Assembly (NCBI GenBank): GCA_947455145.1
Contig: CANGME010000002.1
Coordinates: 248,001-312,000 of the forward strand
From: Comamonadaceae bacterium
GTDB lineage: Bacteria > Pseudomonadota > Gammaproteobacteria > Burkholderiales > Burkholderiaceae_C
Length of the DNA stretch: 64,000 nucleotides
Direction of reading: 5' to 3'
Positions 26,164 to 38,676 of this stretch are shown here, one piece after another (the stretch's first letter is position 1; the number at the start of each line of letters is the position of its first letter). Under the pieces are notes generated by a model. That model was not told where the DNA came from. It did no database searches and saw nothing but the letters and a program-made list of their open reading frames with translations. Position numbers and translations under genes: made by a program.

Positions 26164-27975
26164 TTGGCAACACTCATACCCGCGTTAGGCAGCTGCACCT
26201 CACGCATGACCAGCGGCGAACGGCGCTTGGCTGAACGGCTGGAGCAAAAGCTCGACGACGACTACCTACTCTGGTACGACGTGCCCATGGGGCCGCGCAA
26301 CACCCACCCCGACTTTTGCGTGATGCACCCAAGTCGCGGCATTCTGGTGCTGGAGGTGAAAGACTGGAAGCTCAGCACCATCTTGCAAGCCAACAAACAA
26401 GACTGGGAAATTTTGGGAGACACCGGCCCCAAGACCGTTATCAACCCACTGGAGCAAGCGCGTCAGTACGCGCACCAAGTCGTCAATGCGCTGGAGCGCG
26501 ACCCGCAACTGGTGCGGTCTGATGGCCCGCACGCAGGCAAGCTGGCTTTCCCCTGGAGCTACGGCGTGGTGTTGACCCACATCACCCGCAAGCAATTTGA
26601 AGCGGCAGAGCTACAGCACGCCATAGAACCGCATCGCGTGCTGTGCCAAGACGAAATGCTGGAAAGCGTAGGCGCTGAAGACTTGCAAAGCCGCCTGTGG
26701 GACATGTTCCCCTACGGCATGCGCGGCGCCATCAGCTTGCCGCAGATAGACCGCGTGCGCTGGATCATGTTCCCCCAAGTGCGTGTGCAGACCCAGGGCG
26801 CGCTGTTTGACGACAGCAACGAAGAAGCCGAAATGCCCAGCATCATGCGCGTGATGGACATCCAGCAAGAGCAACTGGCCCGCAGCTTGGGCGACGGCCA
26901 CCGTGTCATCCACGGTGTGGCGGGCTCGGGCAAGACCATGATCCTGGGCTACCGCGCCGAGTACCTTGCACAGGCCAGCACCGCCAGCAGCAAGCCCATC
27001 CTCATCCTGTGCTTTAACGAGCCGCTGGGCGTGAAGCTGCACAGCGTGATGGAAGCCAAGGGTTTGAGCGACAAGGTGCATGTGCGGCATTTTCATAAAT
27101 GGTGCTACGACCAACTTAAATACTCGGGGCAGGCTATGCCATCCCAAGGCCTCAAGTTCTCTGAAGAACTGGTTGACCGTGTCATCCGCGCCGTAGACCG
27201 CAAGCAAATCCCCAGCGGCCAGTACCAAGCCGTGCTCATCGACGAAGGCCACGACTTTGCCCCCGAGTGGCTCAAGCTGGTCACCCAAATGGTGGACCCC
27301 ACAACCAACAGCCTGCTGCTCCTGTTTGATGATGCACAAAGCATTTATGAACGTGCGCGCACCAAACAGTTCAGCTTCAAAAGCGTAGGCGTGCAGGCGC
27401 AGGGCCGCACCACCATTCTGAAAATCAACTACCGCAACACCAAGCAAATACTGCAAACCGCCAACCTCATCGCCGCCGACCTGCTGACTGCCGACGACAA
27501 AGACGACGACGGCATCCCCCTGGTCAAACCCATCAGCTGCGGGCGCGAAGGCCAAGCGCCCATCATCATCAAACTACCCAGCCTGCGCGAAGAAGCATTC
27601 GCCATTGCCGACCAGTTGAACCAAGCCCACAAAGAAGGCCACGCCTGGGGCGATATGGCCATTTTGTGCCCCGACTACAGCACCCGCGACCTGTGCGCCC
27701 AGGTGCTGCACCAACGCCAGATGCCCGTAGAAATGCGCCGCAGCCCCGGCGACTTTGACCCCACCAGCAACACCATCAAGGTAATGACCATGAAGGTCAG
27801 CAAAGGCCTGGAGTTCCCCGTGGTGGCCCTGCCCGGCGTCGGGCACATGCCCGCCAAGGGCAAAGACGAGCAAGAAGCCGCGCGGATGTTCTATGTGGCG
27901 GCGACGCGGGCGACACAGAGGCTGGTGATTGGGGTGGGTGGGGATGGGGGATTTGGAAGCAGGCTCGGATCATGA
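26164..27975 (+). CDS. NERD-domain superfamily I helicase-like protein
   Basis: A 603-residue protein starting at TTG 26164. The N-terminal NERD nuclease-related domain has D50 and E64xK66 (LVLEVKDWK). A UvrD/Rep-type ATPase follows: Walker A GVAGSGKT (251-258), Walker B VLIDEGHD (357-364), a motif III-like LLLFDDAQSIY, and C-terminal helicase motifs MKVSKGLEFPVV and FYVAATRATQRL. Such proteins are usually linked to DNA repair, plasmid or phage interference. It is the first gene of the accessory island. Its last 160 bp before the tail occur again at 30158. Confidence 0.9.
   Translation: MATLIPALGSCTSRMTSGERRLAERLEQKLDDDYLLWYDVPMGPRNTHPDFCVMHPSRGILVLEVKDWKLSTILQANKQDWEILGDTGPKTVINPLEQARQYAHQVVNALERDPQLVRSDGPHAGKLAFPWSYGVVLTHITRKQFEAAELQHAIEPHRVLCQDEMLESVGAEDLQSRLWDMFPYGMRGAISLPQIDRVRWIMFPQVRVQTQGALFDDSNEEAEMPSIMRVMDIQQEQLARSLGDGHRVIHGVAGSGKTMILGYRAEYLAQASTASSKPILILCFNEPLGVKLHSVMEAKGLSDKVHVRHFHKWCYDQLKYSGQAMPSQGLKFSEELVDRVIRAVDRKQIPSGQYQAVLIDEGHDFAPEWLKLVTQMVDPTTNSLLLLFDDAQSIYERARTKQFSFKSVGVQAQGRTTILKINYRNTKQILQTANLIAADLLTADDKDDDGIPLVKPISCGREGQAPIIIKLPSLREEAFAIADQLNQAHKEGHAWGDMAILCPDYSTRDLCAQVLHQRQMPVEMRRSPGDFDPTSNTIKVMTMKVSKGLEFPVVALPGVGHMPAKGKDEQEAARMFYVAATRATQRLVIGVGGDGGFGSRLGS
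27784..27943 (+). repeat. Direct repeat, copy 1 (inside helicase gene)
   Basis: 160 bp encoding the helicase C-terminal motifs from MTMKVSKGLEF to the GVGG stretch. The second copy starts at 30158. I count 11 differences over the 160 positions. The two copies lie in the same orientation, about 2.4 kb apart, and bracket the fic and ORF6N genes. Confidence 0.92.
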
Positions 27976-28067
27976 CAAGCAAATCGCGCCACCTGTGTGT
28001 CGCAATACTCCTTGCGCGCCACACCGAGTGGCGCGATACTGGCAGCCTTTGACTAAAACCTGAGAAC

Positions 28068-29495
28068 ATGCCAAGCATCACCCCCCCGACAGAGCCAGAC
28101 CAACTGGTGGCGCTGATTACTGCGCAACCCGATGGTTTGGGAATAGAGGCCATTACCCAGGCGTTGGGCGATAGCCTGAAGCGGCGCACTTTGCAGCGTC
28201 GGCTGGCCACTTTGGTGGCGCAGGGGCGGATTCAGATGCAGGGCGAGGCGCGGGCGGTGCGCTATGTGCGCAACCCACAAAGCGTTACCGGATTCCTTTC
28301 GGCACATGAAGCGGCGGACACGGTGCAGGCTGTTGCCGAGGTTTACGTGCCTACCTCACCGGAAGGCGAAGCGATCAAAGCCTACGTACGCCAGCCCCGT
28401 GCCATGCGCGCGCCGGTGGGCTACCAGTTGGCGTTTCTGGAGCAATACCAGCCCAATCACACCGCCTATCTGCCGCCCGCTTTGCGAGACCAGTTGCACA
28501 CCATGGGCAGAGCGCGCACTGAGCAAACACCGGCGGGCACCTTTGCGCGTGACATTCTGAACCGCTTGCTGATTGACCTGTCGTGGGCCTCCTCCATGCT
28601 GGAGGGCAACACCTACAGCCGGCTCGATACCGAGCGACTCATCGAATTCGGCCAAGCCACTGAGGGCAAAACCGCGCTGGAAACCCAGATGATCCTGAAC
28701 CACAAACAGGCCATTGAATACCTGGTGCTCGATCCAAACCACGCCCAAGTCACGCCCGATTGCATCATCGCGTTGCATGCATTTTTGTCAGATGGCCTGA
28801 TGGCCGACCCCACAGCGGTGGGCCGCCTTCGTCGGCGGGCGGTAGAAATTGGCGGCAGCGTGTATTTGCCGGTGGCCTTGCCGCAGCGGCTGGAGGAACT
28901 GTTTGGCATCGTCATACAGATGGCTGCAGAAATTGACGACCCCTTCGAGCAGGCATTTTTTCTGATGGTGCATTTGCCCTACCTGCAGCCGTTTGAGGAT
29001 GTGAACAAGCGCACCTCAAGACTGGCGGCCAACATACCGCTCATTCGCCACAATCTGTGCCCCCTGTCCTTCATCGACGTGCCTCAGGCAGCCTATGTGG
29101 ACGCGATGATGGGTGTGTACGAACTCAATCGCGTCGAGCTGCTGCGTGACGTGTTTGTGTGGGCCTACGAGCGCTCATGCCAGCAATACGTGGCCGTCAA
29201 GCAGAACCTGGTGCCGCCCGATATTTTTCGTCTGCGCTATCGCCAGGCCTTGAGCGACGTGGTGGCAGCCATTATTCAAAACGACGAGGCCGTGACCCTT
29301 GCCACCGTGAGCGCCAGGCTGCCACCAACGGTTGCCGCTGCTGATGCGGCCCACTTCACCCAGCTGGTACTGCAAGAGTTTGCTGCCTTGCACCCCGGGA
29401 ATGTAGTGCGGTTTGGTATCAGGCCTTTGGTGTTTGCAGCCTGGAAAGAAAGGCATGGCGGGGACAGCGGATTGGGGGCAAGGCTAGGAACATGA
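28068..29495 (+). CDS. Fic-domain protein with Gln in place of the catalytic His
   Basis: A 475-residue protein with an N-terminal winged-helix part (about 10-70) and a Fic core. The alpha-helical inhibitory motif is present (SSMLEGN, 175-181). The Fic loop reads QPFEDVNKRTSR (307-318), where canonical AMP-transferring enzymes have HPFx(D/E)GN(G/K)RxxR. The catalytic His and the Gly before Asn are thus replaced by Gln and Val. A third domain (about 380-475) looks like a further winged helix. AMP transfer is therefore doubtful; other catalysis or a scaffold role is possible. It lies in the island between the two helicase repeats. Confidence 0.85.
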   Translation: MPSITPPTEPDQLVALITAQPDGLGIEAITQALGDSLKRRTLQRRLATLVAQGRIQMQGEARAVRYVRNPQSVTGFLSAHEAADTVQAVAEVYVPTSPEGEAIKAYVRQPRAMRAPVGYQLAFLEQYQPNHTAYLPPALRDQLHTMGRARTEQTPAGTFARDILNRLLIDLSWASSMLEGNTYSRLDTERLIEFGQATEGKTALETQMILNHKQAIEYLVLDPNHAQVTPDCIIALHAFLSDGLMADPTAVGRLRRRAVEIGGSVYLPVALPQRLEELFGIVIQMAAEIDDPFEQAFFLMVHLPYLQPFEDVNKRTSRLAANIPLIRHNLCPLSFIDVPQAAYVDAMMGVYELNRVELLRDVFVWAYERSCQQYVAVKQNLVPPDIFRLRYRQALSDVVAAIIQNDEAVTLATVSARLPPTVAAADAAHFTQLVLQEFAALHPGNVVRFGIRPLVFAAWKERHGGDSGLGARLGT

Positions 29496-29508
29496 AAAGG
29501 CCACGACC

Positions 29509-29973
29509 ATGATTACGAGCAACACACTACTGGTACCGCGTATTGAAAGCCGTATCCAAGTGATTCGCGGCCTGCGGGTCTTGCTTGATGTGGACTTGGC
29601 TGCGCTGTACGGGGTACAGACCAAGCGGCTTAATGAGCAGGTCAAACGCAACCGGGACCGCTTTCCAAAAACCGAGGTGGTCGCAAATTGCGACCACCTC
29701 CAAAATCTGAAATTTTCCAAGGCGTTGCCTTTTGCGTTTACCGAGCACGGAGCAATTCAGGCGGCCAATGTGCTGGCATCAAGCCAAGCGGTTGAGATGC
29801 CGCACGACAACTTCAGCCGAAACACCCGGCTGCAATTGCGCCAACTGCTGGACGCGGTGCGTGAGCTGACTGCGCCACCGGAGCCGCCCAAACGGCCCAT
29901 TGGGTTTCTGACGCATGAGGATAAAAAGACACCCAAGGCCAGCACGTTGACCAAAGGACGGAAGGCACCGTGA
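29509..29973 (+). CDS. ORF6N-domain DNA-binding-like protein
   Basis: A 154-residue protein. The N-terminal half matches the ORF6N domain: IESRIQVIRGLRVLLDVDLAALYGV, then RLNEQVKRNRDRFP, and FAFTEHGAIQAANVL. The middle segment after QAVEMPH departs from the family pattern, and the usual helical stretch is shortened before the C-terminal PPEPPKRPIGF tail. This may reflect an internal deletion. ORF6N proteins are phage- or plasmid-borne and often act as antirepressors. It follows the fic gene by 13 bp and probably shares its transcript. Confidence 0.75.
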   Translation: MITSNTLLVPRIESRIQVIRGLRVLLDVDLAALYGVQTKRLNEQVKRNRDRFPKTEVVANCDHLQNLKFSKALPFAFTEHGAIQAANVLASSQAVEMPHDNFSRNTRLQLRQLLDAVRELTAPPEPPKRPIGFLTHEDKKTPKASTLTKGRKAP

Positions 29974-30158
29974 GCGTCCAACCAAAGACATTAATCCGCC
30001 CGCCAGTCATGACAATGGCAACCAACAGGAGTCACGTGGTGCAGCTTGCCGACGCATTCCCAATTGAGCTGGAGCAAAGGCTGCATGCAGCATTGCTTGA
30101 ATCGCGTGAGCGGGTGGCGCGGCGCGGGGTGCTGTTGGGGGACTTGGATGACGAGTGA
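29970..30158 (+). CDS. Small hypothetical protein, translationally coupled to the ORF6N gene
   Basis: A 62-residue frame whose GTG start overlaps the preceding TGA stop (GTGA). The second half, FPIELEQRLHAALLESRERVARRG, is predicted helical and charged, ending GDLDDE. It resembles no family I can name. Its stop lies at the junction with the second helicase repeat, so the reading frame may have been cut there. It may be a remnant rather than a gene. Confidence 0.3.
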   Translation: MSVQPKTLIRPPVMTMATNRSHVVQLADAFPIELEQRLHAALLESRERVARRGVLLGDLDDE

Positions 30159-30355
30159 TGACCATGAAGGTCAGCAACGGCCTGGAGTTCCCCGTGGTGG
30201 CCCTGCCCGGCGTGGGGCACATGCCCGCCAAGGGCGAAGACGAGCAAGAGGCCGCGCGGGTGTTTTATGTGGCGGCGACACGGGCTACGCAGAGGTTGGT
30301 GACTGGGGTGGGTGGGGGGTGGAAGAAAACTGAAGAAATAAAACTGAATTTTTAA
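30158..30355 (+). pseudogene. Second copy of the helicase C-terminal end (fragment)
   Basis: From 30158 to about 30317 the DNA repeats 27784-27943 with 11 mismatches; translation gives MTMKVSNGLEFPVV and FYVAATRATQRLV. Then the sequence diverges and the frame ends at 30355 with GGGWKKTEEIKLNF. No helicase N-terminal part precedes it. Four of the changes alter residues (K to N, K to E, M to V, I to T). It is probably a remnant of a duplication or of a former second helicase gene. Confidence 0.88.
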
Positions 30356-30370
30356 GAAGAAGGAGATTGC

Positions 30371-33010
30371 ATGATTGTTCAATCAATTCCGGCAAAAGCC
30401 AATGCCGCAGAAAAAGTTGACGACTTTGAGGAATGGTTGGGACAGCGGCACAAATGGCTGCAAACCGCGGCACATCAAATTATTGAACGCAAAGCGGTTG
30501 CTTCAGGTCCTGAACTAATAGAGCTGACCCAGCTCTGCATTGGTGAGGCCAGCGAAACTGGAAGCCACGCATTTACCAAGCTAGTTCCGGGTTCGTTAAT
30601 TCATGGTGCAGGGCGTCCAACGCTCCACATTGAAAAGTTAAGCGCAGTCCGTGGTGTCAACAAAATTAGGGATGACGCGTCGCTGAATTTTGGAACAAAG
30701 AACCTCGCCGTGGTCTATGGGGCCAATGGATCTGGCAAGACAGGGTTTTCTCGTCTTCTCAAGCAAATTTGCGGCAGCCGCGCGCGAGAAGAAATTTACC
30801 CCAATGTTTTCAATAAACCAGTCACAGGATGCGAAGCCAAGATTTTAGTTTCGATTGGTGGGGCTGCAAGTGAGCTAGGGTGGACCCTCAACGGCGGTCC
30901 GTTGTCGCCGCTGCGCGATGTACATGTATTCGACTCAAGAACTGCCTCAAATTATTTGGCTCAGCAGAACGAAGCTAGGTATGAACCAAGTCGAATGCGC
31001 TTTGTTTCTGCACTCATTAAAACGAGTGACGGGGTAGCTGCCCAGCTTCTTGCACAGAAGAACGCCCTCCTCAGTAAGTTGCCGCTATTTCCGACCACTT
31101 TGGCTCAAGCTACGAATGCAAAGTGGCTTTCATCACTGCGGCCAACAACAAGCCAAGCAGATATCGATAAGGCCTGTGACTACTCAAATGAGTTAGATAT
31201 CGAGAGAGTCGCGTCAGAGGGCGCGTTGGCTCAGAAAGACATTGCGGGAAGACTCAGCGCTATCGGCCGAGAGCAGGTTTTCCTTGCGCAAATCCGTACA
31301 TCCCTTACTGCCTTGCAGGATGATATTTCTGATTTGCAGTTAGGCGCGCTGATCACCGCACGCACTGAAGCAGTAGCGAAGCGAAAGACCGCGAGTGAAG
31401 CTGCCGAGGCGGTCTTTGCGACTGCACCCCTGGAGGGGGTTGGTCAAAAAACTTGGCTCGCGCTCTGGGAGCACGCAAAAGCGTTCTCCCAACTACACGC
31501 TTATCCTGGCCATACATTTCCAAATACAGATGCGGGCGCACATTGTGTTCTCTGTCAACAAACGCTCAATGACGGTGCAAAAACACGCTTTGGCCACTTT
31601 GAGGCTTTTGTGACAGGTGGATTGGAGGATGCTGCAAAAGCGGCAGAGAAGACGCATACCGATTTGCTGAAAAAGTTGCCCACGATTCCTCAAGAACATG
31701 ATTGGGCGCTACAGACAAGCAGTCTAAAACTTGATGAAGCAGTTTCCAGCGAAATTTATTCGGGACTTGGAACAAGATGCGCGGCGGTATTGACCGCAAA
31801 TCAGGTCAAGGAACTACCGGCGATCAACTGGATGGCAGTCGATAAAGCTCACACAGACGTATCAGAAGCCCTAACCGCCGAAACGAAGGCGCTCAAGGAG
31901 TTGCAAGGCGACGTAAAGCGCAAACAATTGGAAGCGAGAGTGTTGGAACTACTTACTATTCAATGGCTGAGTCAAAACAAGGCGGCGATTTGCGAAGAAG
32001 CGCAGCGTCTAAAAGACATTGCCCTTATCGACAAGGCCATTGGCCTAACCAATATGAACGTATTGACTCGAAAACACACGGAGTTGGCCAAGGACGATCT
32101 GCATAAGGGCTACCAAAGGCGGTTTGCAACTGAACTAAAACTGTTAGGAGGAAACCGGCTACCAGTTAAGCCTGAAAGCAAACAAGCTGGCAAAGGGAAG
32201 ATGACATTTGGTCTCCAGCTCCAAGGGGTCGAGCGTGCACTTGCCGCTGAACTCGTACTCAGTGAAGGCGAAACGCGAATCGTCGCACTGTCCGCATTTC
32301 TCGCAGACATTACAGGATTGGAGCACCGCTCACCATTCATCTTTGATGACCCTATCTCATCTTTAGATCAGGACTTTGAAGAGAAGGTCGTTAGAAGACT
32401 TGTTGATCTGTCAAAAACTAGACAAGTCATAGTCTTTACCCATCGATTGTCTTTGCTGGCACTATTGGAAAGTGAAGTCAAAAAGCTAAAGGAAGAAGCC
32501 GACTTGACCAAGCAGCCGCCAGTCGTAGAACTCCAAATTCAATCGGTCTGCAGCTTTGGAAAAAGTGCCGGCGTCGTACAAGACATAAGCATCCGAGAAT
32601 TGAAACCCAAGCCAGCAATCAATCGAATGCGGGATCAACAATTGCCGCAGCTAAGAAATCTGATTGATGCTGGTGATGTGATGGGATACAACGAACGGGC
32701 GAACGGTCTCTGCGGTGACTTCCGAATTCTTGTGGAGCGTTGCGTTGAAAGCATTCTTCTGAACGAAGTATTGATTCGATTTAGGCGTCAACTGCAAACG
32801 CAAGGCAAATTAGGCGCATTGGCCAAAATTTCATCGGAGGATTGCGCGTTGATTGACGACTTGATGACTCGATATTCGGTGTATGAGCATTCGCAGTCTG
32901 ATGAACTACCAGCCGCGCCCCCTGACTTTGCCGACATAGAAGCAGACGTCGTCAAGTTGGCGATTTGGATTGACGAGTTCCAAAAACGGCCGGTTGCAGC
33001 ATCAGCCTAA
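30371..33010 (+). CDS. Rad50/RloC-like AAA ATPase with zinc-hook CxxC and HEPN-like C-terminus
   Basis: An 879-residue protein preceded by a strong AAGGAG site. ABC/SMC-type ATPase motifs are split by a coiled-coil insert: Walker A GANGSGKT (117-124), a CVLC zinc-hook-like pair (392-395) in the middle, signature LSEGE (630-634), Walker B FIFDDP (656-661), D-loop SSLD (663-666) and switch His in TH (691). This matches the AAA_13/COG4694 group that includes the anticodon nuclease RloC. Near the C-terminus R834 and H840 form Rx5H, a HEPN-RNase-like spacing, in TRYSVYEHSQ. I infer a nucleic-acid sensor that triggers RNA cleavage; this is not proven. Base composition is visibly richer in A+T than the flanking catabolic genes. 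The DUF3883 gene follows by 70 bp. Confidence 0.88.
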   Translation: MIVQSIPAKANAAEKVDDFEEWLGQRHKWLQTAAHQIIERKAVASGPELIELTQLCIGEASETGSHAFTKLVPGSLIHGAGRPTLHIEKLSAVRGVNKIRDDASLNFGTKNLAVVYGANGSGKTGFSRLLKQICGSRAREEIYPNVFNKPVTGCEAKILVSIGGAASELGWTLNGGPLSPLRDVHVFDSRTASNYLAQQNEARYEPSRMRFVSALIKTSDGVAAQLLAQKNALLSKLPLFPTTLAQATNAKWLSSLRPTTSQADIDKACDYSNELDIERVASEGALAQKDIAGRLSAIGREQVFLAQIRTSLTALQDDISDLQLGALITARTEAVAKRKTASEAAEAVFATAPLEGVGQKTWLALWEHAKAFSQLHAYPGHTFPNTDAGAHCVLCQQTLNDGAKTRFGHFEAFVTGGLEDAAKAAEKTHTDLLKKLPTIPQEHDWALQTSSLKLDEAVSSEIYSGLGTRCAAVLTANQVKELPAINWMAVDKAHTDVSEALTAETKALKELQGDVKRKQLEARVLELLTIQWLSQNKAAICEEAQRLKDIALIDKAIGLTNMNVLTRKHTELAKDDLHKGYQRRFATELKLLGGNRLPVKPESKQAGKGKMTFGLQLQGVERALAAELVLSEGETRIVALSAFLADITGLEHRSPFIFDDPISSLDQDFEEKVVRRLVDLSKTRQVIVFTHRLSLLALLESEVKKLKEEADLTKQPPVVELQIQSVCSFGKSAGVVQDISIRELKPKPAINRMRDQQLPQLRNLIDAGDVMGYNERANGLCGDFRILVERCVESILLNEVLIRFRRQLQTQGKLGALAKISSEDCALIDDLMTRYSVYEHSQSDELPAAPPDFADIEADVVKLAIWIDEFQKRPVAASA

Positions 33011-33080: not shown

Positions 33081-34229
33081 ATGACCACTCAAGTGAAATT
33101 TCAAGCTAGCAAACTCCAAGCGTTTGATGTTACTTACGACACGAAGCATGAAGATATTGCTGCCCAAGTGCGCGGTGAATTTTTGCAAAGATTTCCAATC
33201 ATTAGTCTTCCGCGTATGAAACGAGATGACTATGTGATTGGTCTTCAAAGTCCAACTTTTTGCGCCCATGTCGAGGCAAAGACACGGCCATGGGCCAACA
33301 TTCAAGGGGCCACTTCGAACAAGTTCGGAATCTATTTTGGAAAGACCAAAACCGATCCGAAGAAAATCTACCGTTTCACCCACAAGTTCGGTGAAACATC
33401 GGATGAAGCATTTCGTTCGGTGAAGGCTGCGTTGTTGGCGCTAGTTCGTCTTGGCGAAGCGTCAGTTTTGGACTTTTCGAAGATCGATGACAACCCGCTC
33501 TCTCAGATGTTCAAAGCGAAGATTCTGAGTCTCTATTTTCCCGATAAATTTCTGAATGTCTGCAGTGCCGAGCATTTGGAAATGCTCGGCGGCGAGCTTG
33601 GGTACGCCGATGGCCGACCGATTAGCGAGTATCAACATCTATTGCTAGAGGCCAAACTTTCAAACGCTATTACACGTAAGTGGAGCAATCCAAAATTCAT
33701 GAAATTCCTGTACGACGTATACGTTCGTGCGGAGAGTACGGCGGCAAACATTGTGCAAAAGCCACGGAAGAAGATCCCTCAAAAAGTAAATTTTGAAGAC
33801 ATTTCAGGGCAACGGGATGCTATCGGAAAGGCCGCAGAGGAGTTTGCAGTCGAATGGGAAAAGCAACGACTTGCAGGTGCCGAACTTTCTCACCTGATTT
33901 CGAAGATTGACGATCGTCGCGATCGACCCGGATATGGGTATGACTTCCTTTCACACACGTCCCAGACACAACAACGATACATCGAAGTCAAATCCGTCGG
34001 AAAACTGCCTGGCGGACAAGGCCATCGTTTCTTTCTTTCCGAAAACGAACATACGGTTTCGAAATCTGCTGACCATCGTGGCGCATATTTCTTTTACTTG
34101 GTGTTCTTCAACGGCAACGGACAGCCCTTTGAACTACAGCCAATTCGCGCCGACGAGCTTTATGAACTGGGTGAAATGTCACCTGCGTCATATGTAGTTC
34201 GTTTTGACTTTGGACGCGCGGGAAAGTAG
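33081..34229 (+). CDS. DUF3883 (NO VEIN C-terminal) restriction-nuclease-like protein
   Basis: A 382-residue protein with an AAGGAG ribosome site. The C-terminal DUF3883 domain (about 245-382) has a PD-(D/E)xK-like core: helix IGKAAEEFAVEWEKQRL, then D288 in GYGYDF and E302xK304 in YIEVKSVG, then FFLSENEHTVSK and YFFYLVF. The N-terminal 220 residues have NPLSQMFKAKILSLYFPDKFL and CSAEHLEML, a pattern I recall from McrB-type and other modification-dependent restriction proteins. Together with the upstream ATPase this looks like an effector or target-recognition subunit. Base composition matches the ATPase gene. Confidence 0.82.
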   Translation: MTTQVKFQASKLQAFDVTYDTKHEDIAAQVRGEFLQRFPIISLPRMKRDDYVIGLQSPTFCAHVEAKTRPWANIQGATSNKFGIYFGKTKTDPKKIYRFTHKFGETSDEAFRSVKAALLALVRLGEASVLDFSKIDDNPLSQMFKAKILSLYFPDKFLNVCSAEHLEMLGGELGYADGRPISEYQHLLLEAKLSNAITRKWSNPKFMKFLYDVYVRAESTAANIVQKPRKKIPQKVNFEDISGQRDAIGKAAEEFAVEWEKQRLAGAELSHLISKIDDRRDRPGYGYDFLSHTSQTQQRYIEVKSVGKLPGGQGHRFFLSENEHTVSKSADHRGAYFFYLVFFNGNGQPFELQPIRADELYELGEMSPASYVVRFDFGRAGK

Positions 34230-34359: not shown

Positions 34360-35769
34360 ATGCATGAAATCATCTGCCCCCACTGCAGCAAAGCATTCAA
34401 AATCGACGAGGCGGGGTACGCAGATATCCTGAAGCAAGTTCGCGACGGTGCGTTCGAGCAGCAGTTGCATGAGCGACTTGAATTGGCCGAGCAAGACAAG
34501 CGCAATGCCGTCGAGCTTGCCCAGGCCCAGGTCGCCAGCGCAATGCAGAAGACTGCTGTAGCCAAGGATTCCGAAATCCAGGCACTCAAGGCTAAGCTGG
34601 ATGCGGGTGAAGTTGCGCGCAAGCTCGCCGTGACCGAGGCCCTGAGTGCGGTGCAAAAAGAGCGTGACGCGCTGGCGAACGAACTTGATCAGGCAAAGCG
34701 TGAAAAGCTAGCGGCTTCTGAGCTGGCCGAAGCCAAGCTGGCGAACGGGCTACAGAATGCCACCGCCACCAAAGACGCGGAGATTCAAGGCCTGAGAGCA
34801 AAGCTCGATGCCGCCGAGGTCATACAAAAGTTGGCGATCACCGAGGCTGTGAATGTCGTCGCGCGGGAACGCGACGAGTTGAAGAACGGCCTGGCGCGGG
34901 CTGAGCTTGAAAAGCAGCTCGCCGAAAAATCGCTCAAAGACAAGTACGAGACGCAGATCAAAGACCGCGATGACGCCATAGAGCGCCTGCGCGACATGAA
35001 GGCGCGCCTGTCCACCAAGATGGTGGGCGAGACGCTGGAGCAGCACTGCGAGACGGAGTTCAACCGCATTCGCGCGACAGCGTTTCCACGGGCCTATTTC
35101 GAGAAAGACAACGACGCGCGCACCGGCAGCAAGGGCGACTACATTTTTCGCGACCTGGACGAGTCTGGCACCGAGATCGTGTCAATCATGTTTGAAATGA
35201 AGAATGAGAACGACCGCACCAGCACGAAGAACAAGAACGAAGACTTTTTGAAGGAGCTGGACAAAGACCGCACTGAGAAGGGCTGCGAATACGCCGTGCT
35301 GGTCTCCCTGCTGGAGCCAGACAGCGAGCTGTACAACACCGGCATCGTGGATGTGTTCCACCGCTTCCCCAAGATGTACATCGTGCGCCCCCAGTTCTTT
35401 CTGCCCATCATCACGCTGCTGCGCAACGCAGCGATGAACTCGCTCAAGTACAAGTCGGAGCTGGCGCTGGTGAAGGCGCAGAACATTGACATCACGAATT
35501 TTGAGGCCAGCCTCGATACCTTCAAGACCGCATTCGCGCGCAACTACGACCTTGCATCCAACAGCTTTAAAAAGGCAATCGATGAGATCGACAAATCCAT
35601 CGACCACCTGCAGAAAACCAAAGACGCTCTGCTTGGCACTGATCGGAATCTACGTCTTGCAAACGACAAGGCGCAAGACGTGACGATCAAGAAGCTGACG
35701 CGGGGCAACCCGACGATGGCAGCCAAGTTTGCGGAGCTCAAGAGTTCTGGTTCTGCCGATGCTGAGTAA
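34360..35769 (+). CDS. DUF2130 coiled-coil protein with nuclease-like fold
   Basis: A 469-residue protein. An N-terminal CPHC zinc-ribbon half (residues 6-9) is followed by a long coiled coil (about 30-215), then the DUF2130 domain with [10 protein letters not shown] (about 256-265) and IMFEMKNEN (about 276-284), a D...ExK arrangement typical of restriction-like folds. The coiled coil holds two copies of a 69-residue unit, starting [14 protein letters not shown] (69) and [14 protein letters not shown] (138), each followed by KLAxTEA and RERDEL-like segments. Function is unknown. The start has an AGAGGAAG site. Confidence 0.87.
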
Positions 35770-35832: not shown

Positions 35833-36963
35833 CTATTTGGCTTGTAACTCATACCCCGTACTGCGCCCCCCACCCTCCAACCTGCGCAGCACGCCGTGCG
35901 CCAGCAGGTCGTTGATGTCGCGCAGCGCGGTGTCGGCAGAGCACTTGCCTAACGCCGCCCACTTGGCGTTGGTGAGCTTGCCTTCCAGGCCATCCAGCAC
36001 GCGGTTGAGCACCTGGGTTTGCCGCGCGTTCATGGGCATGCCTGCCCAGCGCTGCCAGAACTGGGCCTTGTCCAGCACGCCCGCCAGCGTGGCGTCTGCG
36101 CCCTGCACGGCGCGCAGCAGGCAGCCCAAAAACCAGTTGAGCCAGGGCGTCACGTCTAGCGGGCCTTTTTGGGTGGCCTCCAATTTATCGTAGTAGTCCT
36201 TGCGTTCGCGCTGTATCTGGGCGCTGAAGCTGTAAAAGCGTTGGCTGGTACCTTCGGCGCGGGCCAGCGCCATGTCGCCCACGGCACGGCTGATGCGGCC
36301 ATTGCCGTCGTCAAAGGGGTGCAGGGTCACCAGCCACAGGTGGGCCAGCCCGGCTTTGATGAGGGCGTCGCCCAGCGGGGCGGCCTCGAACCATTTAAAG
36401 AAGGCATCTGTTTGTGCAGGCAGTGTGCTGGCGGGCGGAGCGATGAAGTGCACTGTCTCGCGGCCCACTGCACCCGACACCACTTGCATGGGGCCGCTGG
36501 CATCCGTGCGCCACGCGGCCACGGTGATGCGCACCCGTCCGCTGTAGCCGGTGGGGAACAGGGCAGCGTGCCAGCCAAACAGGCGCTCTGGCGTCAGGGG
36601 CTGCTCAAAGCTGCGGGTAGCGTCCAGCACCACATCCACCATGCCGTCCACATGCCGGTCGCTGGGGGCCAGGGCTCCTATGTCCAGCCCCAGCCTGCGG
36701 GCGATGGACGAGCGCACGGCGTCCAGGTTGAGGTGCTCGCCTTCGATCTCGCTGGTTTTGATGACTTCTTGGGTGAGTACCTGCAAGGTGGCTTGCTCGC
36801 GCTGGGCCAGGCCCAGATCGGCCATGCGCCCCATGAGCTGGCCCTGCGCGCGGTGCACCTGGGCGAGCGGCGCAGCCAGTGCAGCAGCGTCATAGCTGAG
36901 GTTTGGCCAGTCGGGCAGTTGCCAGATGTAGCGGGGAGTGCGGGTGGGGCGGTGTGGGCGCAT
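35833..36963 (-). CDS. Fic family protein (canonical)
   Basis: A 376-residue protein with the DUF4172-like N-terminal region (YIWQLPDWPNLSYD), an inhibitory helix TSEIEGE (70-76), the complete Fic motif HPFDDGNGRISR (215-226) and a C-terminal winged helix (about 320-376). It should be able to transfer AMP or another nucleotide moiety to a protein hydroxyl, and to be autoinhibited by E74. It contrasts with the Gln-variant Fic at 28068. It faces the plus-strand DUF2130 gene and converges with it, 63 bp apart. Confidence 0.9.
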   Translation of the reverse strand: MRPHRPTRTPRYIWQLPDWPNLSYDAAALAAPLAQVHRAQGQLMGRMADLGLAQREQATLQVLTQEVIKTSEIEGEHLNLDAVRSSIARRLGLDIGALAPSDRHVDGMVDVVLDATRSFEQPLTPERLFGWHAALFPTGYSGRVRITVAAWRTDASGPMQVVSGAVGRETVHFIAPPASTLPAQTDAFFKWFEAAPLGDALIKAGLAHLWLVTLHPFDDGNGRISRAVGDMALARAEGTSQRFYSFSAQIQRERKDYYDKLEATQKGPLDVTPWLNWFLGCLLRAVQGADATLAGVLDKAQFWQRWAGMPMNARQTQVLNRVLDGLEGKLTNAKWAALGKCSADTALRDINDLLAHGVLRRLEGGGRSTGYELQAK

Positions 36964-37473: not shown

Positions 37474-38676
37474 ATGATCCACTTCCCACGAACAGCCTTG
37501 GCGCAAACGCTGGTGACCGCCCTCCAGGGTAAGGCGGTCTTTGGTGACGCTCATAACGGGCTCTTTCTCGCAGCCCCACGGCGCACCGGAAAATCCACAT
37601 TTTTGCAAGCTGATCTGAAGCCCGCGCTGGAGCAGCAAGGCGTGGTGGTGGTTTATGTCGATCTGTGGGCGGATCAGCGGCGAGACCCCGGCACCTTGAT
37701 TGCCGAAGCCATTGGCCGGGCTTTGCAGCCCCGTTTGGGGCTGGTGAGTAAAGCGGCCAGGGCTGTGGGTGTGGAGAAGGTGACGATTGCAGGTGCGCTC
37801 ACGATTGACACCAGCAAAATCGGCAAGTTGGATGGTGTCACGCTGCCCGAAGCACTGCGCGTGCTGCGAGAGGCGGCCAAGGCCCCGGTGGCTTTGATCA
37901 TTGACGAGGCGCAACACGCCTTGACCAGCGAGGCGGGCGAAGCGGCCATGGCCGCGCTGAAGTCAGCGCGCGATCAGCTCAACCGCCCTGGCGAGGTGAA
38001 CCTGATGCTGGTGATGTCCGGCTCTGACCGTGACAAGCTCTTGCGTTTGGTGAACACCAACGGCGCGCCGTTTTACGGCTCTCAGATTCAGCGTATGCCA
38101 GAGTTGGATCAAGACTTCTTGGCCCATATCGTGCAGTTGATTGAAGTCCAGCGGCCCGATGTGAAGCCGGTGGATGCCGACATGCTGTTGGGCGCATTCC
38201 GAGGGTTTGGTTCTCGCCCGCAGTTTTTTATGGAAGCCCTGGGTCAGGCGCTGAGCCCGCTGGCCAACTTGAGCACCCGGTTTGAGGTGGCCATGCTGGA
38301 GTCGGCCCGCCAACGCCAAGCAGATGACGAGGCGCAAATGGAGTCGGACTATCTGGGGCTGAGGGCCATAGAGCAAGCCGTGCTGTGGCGCTTGCTGGAG
38401 CAAGGGCAGCGTTTTCGGCCCTATGACGCAGAGGCGCTGCGCTTTTACCGGGATAAGACGGGCCAGCCCGTCACAGCGCAAAAGGCCCAGAACGCGCTAG
38501 AAGCTTTACGCCAGCACGCACCCGCCATGGTGTGGAAGTCTGCACGCGGTGAGTACGCGGTGGATGACGCCGCCATGCACCGCTGGTTTGAACGGCGTGT
38601 AGAAGGGGCCACTTGGCCACCTGCCGATACGCAGTTGAAGTTGGATTTGGAAAAGTCGCCGCACAAAGGCGTGTGA
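37474..38676 (+). CDS. AAA+/STAND-like ATPase of unknown function
   Basis: A 400-residue protein. Walker A is APRRTGKST (34-42), Walker B LIIDEAQH (141-148), and a sensor-1-like VMSGSDRDKL follows. The C-terminal half is helical with FRDKTGQPVTAQKAQNALEAL, a winged-helix-like part (about 300-375). It resembles single-gene ATPases found in accessory islands and prophages. No effector domain is visible. It is the last gene of the island. Confidence 0.78.
   Translation: MIHFPRTALAQTLVTALQGKAVFGDAHNGLFLAAPRRTGKSTFLQADLKPALEQQGVVVVYVDLWADQRRDPGTLIAEAIGRALQPRLGLVSKAARAVGVEKVTIAGALTIDTSKIGKLDGVTLPEALRVLREAAKAPVALIIDEAQHALTSEAGEAAMAALKSARDQLNRPGEVNLMLVMSGSDRDKLLRLVNTNGAPFYGSQIQRMPELDQDFLAHIVQLIEVQRPDVKPVDADMLLGAFRGFGSRPQFFMEALGQALSPLANLSTRFEVAMLESARQRQADDEAQMESDYLGLRAIEQAVLWRLLEQGQRFRPYDAEALRFYRDKTGQPVTAQKAQNALEALRQHAPAMVWKSARGEYAVDDAAMHRWFERRVEGATWPPADTQLKLDLEKSPHKGV

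Follow-up and report, generated by a model that had tools for sequence, protein, structure and literature searches.

We analysed a 64,000-nucleotide stretch of contig CANGME010000002.1 (positions 248,001 to 312,000) from a Comamonadaceae bacterium, here called the window, in which the 3′ end of a helicase gene with NERD and UvrD domains is repeated downstream of the gene. An earlier note on this DNA had reported a 160-bp direct repeat, and the sequence bears this out exactly: the copies at 27784-27943 and 30158-30317 share the same orientation and are identical at 149 of 160 positions. The repeat reaches 3 nt further upstream (27781 and 30155), with 151 of 163 positions identical. Chance can be excluded as the source of this match, because the best other 160-mer of the window agrees at only 71 of 160 positions on the minus strand and 70 on the plus strand. 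Furthermore, a search of the bacterium's own genome (97% complete, 28 contigs) with the 163-mer at E ≤ 0.001 gave two matches, both of them these copies.

Table 1. Features of the helicase locus, in window coordinates
Feature	Position	Strand	Evidence or remark
NERD-UvrD helicase gene, full length, 603 aa, array head	26164..27975	+	Pfam NERD, UvrD_C; PADLOC C3a187 (NERD+UvrD) 6.6e-168
Left repeat copy	27781..27943	+	Inside the helicase gene; stops 32 bp before the gene end
Fic gene, 475 aa, first cassette	28068..29495	+	Pfam Fic; in L094 a relative with 86% identity follows a helicase 3′ stub
Probable short helicase-tail scar (last codons and stop of the Fic gene)	29457..29495	+	Alignment with the L103 helicase end
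Shortened ORF6N gene, second cassette	29509..29973	+	Pfam ORF6N; PADLOC PDC-S05; longer form directly behind the L052 helicase
YhcG (DUF1016) nuclease gene, C-terminal remnant	30036..30158	+	Alignment with the L052 YhcG end and stub
Right repeat copy, helicase 3′-end stub	30155..30317	+	Pfam UvrD_C 2.9e-08
PDC-S06 AAA ATPase gene, third cassette	30371..33010	+	PADLOC PDC-S06, 1035 bits; directly behind the stub
PD-T4-1 defence gene (NOV_C)	33081..34229	+	PADLOC PD-T4-1 6.7e-172
DUF2130 gene, recurrent downstream neighbour	34360..35769	+	Pfam DUF2130

The right copy, a stub of the helicase 3′ end, lies in a 65-aa open frame (30158-30355) corresponding to the final portion of the UvrD C-terminal domain, which we take to be helicase motifs V-VI (numbered by eye). 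This frame overlaps the preceding YhcG remnant in a stop/start TGATG, and its own stop lies 15 nt upstream of the start codon of the PDC-S06 ATPase gene. Seven of the 11 differences between the copies fall at third codon positions, and four amino acids are changed; for two of them, E and V, it is the second copy that has the residue common in relatives and the full helicase that is the odd one. The helicase scores 558 bits against C3a187 versus 77 bits against the best GajB model, and GajA was absent at E ≤ 0.001 among nine other window sequences searched against PADLOC. On these grounds we rejected an assignment to Gabija as its GajB component.

The Fic and ORF6N genes described by the earlier note indeed lie between the copies, and its small coupled frame is also there. 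We assign this frame to the C-terminal end of a YhcG nuclease gene, because positions 30066-30316 align at 83% with the YhcG end and helicase stub of another locus, L052. In L052 the YhcG gene is complete (Pfam YhcG_C, 2.1e-48) and lies downstream of a longer ORF6N gene, of about 201 aa from the same start versus 154 aa in the window. By eye, the window ORF6N has two in-frame gaps, of about 11 and about 37 codons, when compared with L052, so this cassette is decaying along with YhcG.

Judging from alignments, the end of the Fic gene is probably a second, shorter helicase tail of about 39 bp. For positions 29457-29560, an alignment with the helicase end of L103 (-38 to +65) that continues into ORF6N scores 113, with no more than 31 in 20 shuffles; a similar alignment joins 29481-29560 to L052. 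Both scores come mostly from sequence past the Fic stop. When only the final 56 nt of Fic are aligned with the L103 helicase end, the score is 33, the maximum in 200 shuffles being 30, and we consider the coding part of the putative scar only moderately supported. The Fic gene of L094 does not have this tail.

We found that helicase 3′ ends recur in this arrangement elsewhere. A helicase match at 1e-20 was present in 19 of 100 genomes, the bacterium's own included, and partial copies were evident. We used 111 loci, counting the window, after three duplicates were dropped (L080, L147 and L086, equal to L030, L052 and L032); short loci (L045-L051 and earlier ones) were left out. A full-length helicase was present at 94 loci, including the frameshifted L093, which was added by hand, and no pair among these 94 genes was at least 98% identical over 1.5 kb. 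Each locus was searched with the first, middle and last 600 nt of its own helicase, the last with 60 nt of flank.

Downstream of the helicase and on the same strand, we obtained 15 matches to the 3′ end, corresponding to 14 copies, one of them in two pieces. They occur at 12 of the 94 loci (the window, L028, L052, L088, L094, L101, L102, L103, L110, L126, L130 and L132), a proportion that is not a population frequency, because the loci were found by helicase similarity, many are metagenomic, and six have less than 1 kb of downstream sequence and could hardly reveal an array. All 14 stubs fall within the last ~350 nt of a gene of ~1,810 nt, and left junctions span from about -38 (the Fic end of the window) to about -349 relative to the helicase stop. 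A stray copy of the 5′ 600 nt was found downstream in none of the 94 loci, the lone 5′ match being the second full-length helicase of L145. The minor matches were two short middle ones in L041, one 23-bp middle match on the opposite strand in L124, and matches confined to the flank past the helicase stop in L035 and L131.

As a control, we took called open reading frames (ORFs) that are at least 250 aa long and have 3 kb of sequence downstream, and counted those with a copy of 60 bp or more (E 1e-8) in the 6 kb that follow. Copies of the 3′ end followed 10 of 67 helicases versus 6 of 594 other ORFs (Fisher p value = 2.9e-7), and one of these six overlaps a helicase stub. For the 5′ end, the counts were 0 of 67 helicases versus 5 of 594 other ORFs.

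The genes between the stubs, which we term cassettes, are unrelated to one another and include antiviral and toxin-antitoxin genes. ORF6N-YhcG, YhcG alone or a YhcG remnant is found in the window, L052, L094, L103, L130 and L132; Fic in the window and L094; AbiE in L028 and L133; the PDC-M05 pair in L028, L101 and L102; and an AbiEii-like gene in L110. L094 also contains a remnant of a Schlafen AlbA_2 gene that is whole in L060. What follows the YhcG stub varies by locus and includes PDC-S06, an HD-CE ATPase, a C5 methylase and a 2139-aa gene, among others. Stubs are also found ahead of defence-type genes at loci that have no complete helicase (a dCTP deaminase in L031, a PDC-S06 relative in L138).

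Several pairs of loci differ by the presence of an insert. L028 and L102 are collinear on both sides, and L028 has in addition AbiE and a second helicase 3′ copy of ~345 bp. Past this second copy, L028 runs into the PDC-M05 genes, as the helicase end itself does in L102 and L101; a further stretch ahead of the shared right flank is found in L028 only. Similarly, L094 has an extra unit ahead of the segment that matches the helicase 3′ end and Fic of the window, and in L052 and L103 ORF6N follows a helicase tail immediately, at the place taken by Fic in the window; the tail of the L052 helicase itself is cut short. The window and L052 have in common the helicase, ORF6N, the YhcG end with its stub, and DUF2130, and share nothing in the 8.7 kb upstream, which indicates that the island lies at different genomic places.

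The stubs were also compared with helicase heads and with one another. For 15 fragments, L133 included, the head gene of the same locus is the sole best match in two cases (L088 and L103) and tied in one (L133), while 12 are closer to another head or fragment than to their own head. The gap is wide for some, as in L132 (76% to its own head versus 89% to L077); another example is L110 (73% versus 85% to L144).

The downstream side of the helicase is also the side where defence genes are mainly found at loci without an array. We drew 30 array-free heads from the 64 with both neighbours, choosing ORFs automatically, so that some may be miscalled. A PADLOC match at 1e-25 was obtained for the first downstream ORF in 11 of 30 cases and for the first upstream ORF in 2 of 30 (one-sided p value = 0.005). 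The downstream matches were GajA, SIR2 (twice), PD-T4-1, PDC-S01, PDC-S18, PDC-S06, Ppl (C-terminus only), DUF4297, MkoA and a type II methylase, and the upstream ones PDC-S52 and DpdF. The first gene behind array-free heads thus varies by locus. DUF2130 behaves as a border: among the 58 loci with at least 8 kb of downstream sequence, window included, it lies downstream on the same strand in 14 and upstream in none. In 11 of 21 pairs it has diverged more at silent sites than the head has (p < 0.05, uncorrected), so the helicase head and the right border have different histories.

Taken together, these results make it very probable that the repeat is the scar of defence genes being stacked behind the helicase. 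Under this hypothesis, the NERD-UvrD helicase gene would act as a docking gene, with defence cassettes piling up behind its 3′ end. The incoming DNA would be another allele of the helicase together with its own downstream defence genes, transferred from another cell. On the left side the incoming helicase would pair with the resident one through homology; the joint on the right side would involve little or no homology and would fall within the terminal 40-350 bp of the resident gene. The product would read complete helicase, new cassette, old helicase 3′ stub, old cassette. The window would probably reflect two rounds, in which ORF6N-YhcG first arrived ahead of S06-PD-T4-1, leaving the 163-bp stub, and Fic then arrived ahead of ORF6N-YhcG, leaving the stub of ~39 bp. 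The stubs, their 3′ bias among the 94 loci, their recurrence, the loci with and without an insert and the closer match of most stubs to other alleles are observed directly; the two-sided recombination, the order of events and the transfer between cells are inferred. With this recombination route included, we consider the account the probable best explanation overall.

The earlier note had offered three origins for the repeat: a duplication, a second helicase mostly lost, and cassette insertion by recombination through the helicase end. The last of these fits best, given the stubs at other loci and the loci with and without the insert. Its suggestion that recombination between the copies would delete fic and ORF6N is plausible.

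A number of observations weigh against stacking or against parts of the proposed route. In L133 two 3′ stubs lie upstream of a complete helicase, and two of the 17 loci without a full-length helicase, L043 and L044, have 5′-only pieces (residues 1-86 and 1-217) with no 3′ end nearby; two others, L137 and L060, have both helicase ends. Not every interval holds a recognised defence gene: that of L126 has a cold-shock/Excalibur gene and no known defence gene, and the 175 bp of L088 have no recognised gene. The window stub is 92.6% identical to its own head versus 95.6% to L079, and this contrast of 12 versus 7 differences is too small to decide between them. Nor is there a consistent age gradient along the arrays, since identity goes from 85% to 74% in L028 and from 83% to 87% in L094. 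Accordingly, a rule that the newest insert lies beside the head agrees with L028, disagrees with L094 and was rejected.

Furthermore, silent-site divergence shows no drop toward the helicase 3′ end. Homogenisation of this end by recombination was rejected, as four-fold-site divergence over residues 521-600 is 0.44-0.50 versus 0.415 overall among 84 helicases. Heads are mosaic in general, and no extra mosaicism was found at the 3′ end when 13 array heads (L133 included) were compared with 71 others (p value = 0.84). Movement of cassettes apart from their heads likewise received no support at silent sites, where none of 10 YhcG pairs, one Fic pair and one ORF6N pair fell below p 0.07; the YhcG frames of L103 and L082 include wrong-frame stretches, which makes those comparisons weak. 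For AbiEii, one of three pairs reached p 0.039 (uncorrected), and for PDC-M05A none of three fell below 0.06. YhcG, Fic and ORF6N are not detectably younger than the heads, which fits joint transfer of the helicase and its first cassette.

Another explanation is that two complete helicase-defence loci came to lie in tandem and that a later deletion removed the 5′ part of the second helicase, which is close to the mostly lost second helicase of the earlier note and in part overlaps with stacking. Tandem helicases do exist: L145 has two full-length helicases on one strand whose starts are about 8 kb apart, and the downstream gene contains an internal stop. Helicase genes can also lose their interior, and large internal deletions that keep the start and the C-terminal end in one frame occur in L030, L090 and L136 and, from reading of translations, in L029, L135 and L140. 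Directly behind such genes lie an S06 relative (L029), HEC-01 (L030) and NACHT (L140), and in the other three a gene without an assignment; the retained frame may reflect selection for read-through or coupling. A frameshifted helicase (L093) and one in several frames (L134) still precede a gene of the PDC-S06 type. However, no complete helicase was found at the second position in the examined loci, and random deletion should leave longer pieces as well, not 14 of 14 stubs from the last ~350 nt of the gene. L145 is moreover a single and distant case (58.6% to the window helicase). We therefore regard tandem loss as unlikely, if still the most credible of the rivals.

Some phages and islands integrate at the 3′ ends of genes and restore them. 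A site-specific element that targets the helicase in this way, with the two copies as attL and attR, would account for the 3′-end bias and for the intact head, and the left junctions of several different units lie at about -345 or between -213 and -166 from the helicase stop. However, stub lengths vary and no common core boundary is seen. Neither the plus-strand genes between the window copies (Fic, ORF6N and the YhcG remnant, overlapping ORFs being outside this search) nor 20 annotated cassette and neighbour proteins include a recombinase; the other interval ORFs were read by eye only. An integrating element is accordingly improbable.

More doubtful still is that the stub is kept for a function, either as a small protein with UvrD motifs or as a signal for expression of the gene that follows. 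In the window the frame of the stub is open and closely spaced with its neighbours, as described above, and in L029 the helicase derivative overlaps the S06 start. Among 14 fragments (tested without L101 and the first piece of L102), none has a stop codon. However, seven of the 14 carry frameshifts, and pN/pS, the ratio of nonsynonymous to synonymous change, is an ordinary 0.37 compared with a mean of 0.32 between heads, so that the stubs look more like leftovers than working genes. The AbiE and PDC-M05 cassettes behind or between stubs are on the opposite strand, so coupling through the stub cannot be general.

Least probable of all is that the helicase 3′ end was simply duplicated in place and that genes were then inserted between the copies. 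The few stubs closest to their own heads would suit such a duplication, but it fits poorly with the majority closer to something else (a pattern that head replacement by recombination could also produce) and leaves the rarity of such copies at other genes unexplained.

Stacking behind the helicase resembles several known systems. Integrons consist of a constant head gene and a row of cassettes with a recurrent element between them, and the helicase arrays share this plan. They differ in that the genes between the window copies include no integrase and in that the cassettes show no sign of moving apart from the head. The nearest architecture appears, by analogy, to be that of the orphan toxin-immunity modules of Rhs and contact-dependent inhibition (CDI) loci, in which a complete main gene is followed by displaced fragments, each with its cargo (PMC3967940). 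In its Salmonella example the repeated sequence is 522 bp at 95% identity, and evidence of recombination between the copies is reported (PMC3967940). The likeness lies in same-strand fragments of the 3′ end downstream of the main gene. In contrast, the Rhs fragment is fused to a toxin tip, the cargo being within the protein, while here a stub is followed by unrelated genes; the window stub matches UvrD-type helicase models only and no toxin domain in Pfam and PADLOC.

The nearest mechanism, again by analogy, would be homology-facilitated illegitimate recombination, which has been described in competent bacteria and in E. coli conjugation (PMC3240628). Homology at one end of an incoming linear DNA and an illegitimate joint at the other would yield a full gene, an insert and a stub. 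Pseudomonas aeruginosa has core defence hotspots, fixed sites whose defence systems differ, and homologous recombination via conserved flanks has been suggested as a way in which these could move without mobile-element scars (PMC10250203). The flanks there are core genes near RNA genes, whereas here the anchor is an accessory, defence-type helicase and stubs are left behind. Among the papers listed by searches on direct repeats and helicases in defence islands, defence hotspots, NERD-UvrD in anti-phage work and partial duplication in defence islands, helicase 3′ stubs between defence genes are mentioned in none of the titles and opening lines of abstracts.

The neighbours of the window helicase have relatives near other helicases. 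The nearest relative found of the window PDC-S06 (51%) lies directly behind a helicase derivative in L029. Close S06 relatives are present in 3 of 399 genomes, namely the bacterium's own, G029 (behind the helicase derivative) and G135, where no helicase match was found in the 5.5 kb of sequence examined. In L081 PD-T4-1 is the first called gene behind the helicase. The helicase had two pattern matches in viral contigs, neither of them a relative, in a scan that reaches close relatives only, and 24 plasmid records, every one below 60% identity.

Other observations concern the surroundings. The gap between helicase and Fic (27976-28050) contains, by eye, a palindromic stretch GCGCCAC...GTGGCGC, which is seen again ahead of Fic in L094 and after the L098 helicase end. 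Beyond the island lie a second Fic gene (SoFic-like, minus strand) and an AAA_22 ATPase gene, at 35833-36963 and 37474-38676. In L060 the Schlafen AlbA_2 gene is flanked by the N-terminal 32 codons of the helicase on one side and by its C-terminal part on the other, as if replacing the middle of the helicase. Labels assigned by eye elsewhere are a thymidylate-synthase-like gene in L132, pirin and GAPDH-like genes behind the L130 stub, and a VapC-like gene in L028.

Growth of defence islands without a visible integrase or transposase is an open question that these arrays address. We propose, tentatively, that the NERD-UvrD helicase may act generally as a docking gene through which Burkholderiales and their relatives acquire defence genes without an integrase; its 3′ end would serve as a homology platform and the stubs left by each arrival would in turn provide direct repeats for exchanging or shedding single cassettes. 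If true, whole layered defence islands would grow from one head gene. The anchor gene, its recognisable scar and the filled and unfilled loci open the process to laboratory tests and to searches in genomes, and helicase 3′ stubs may serve as a guide to new defence genes, to be looked for behind them.

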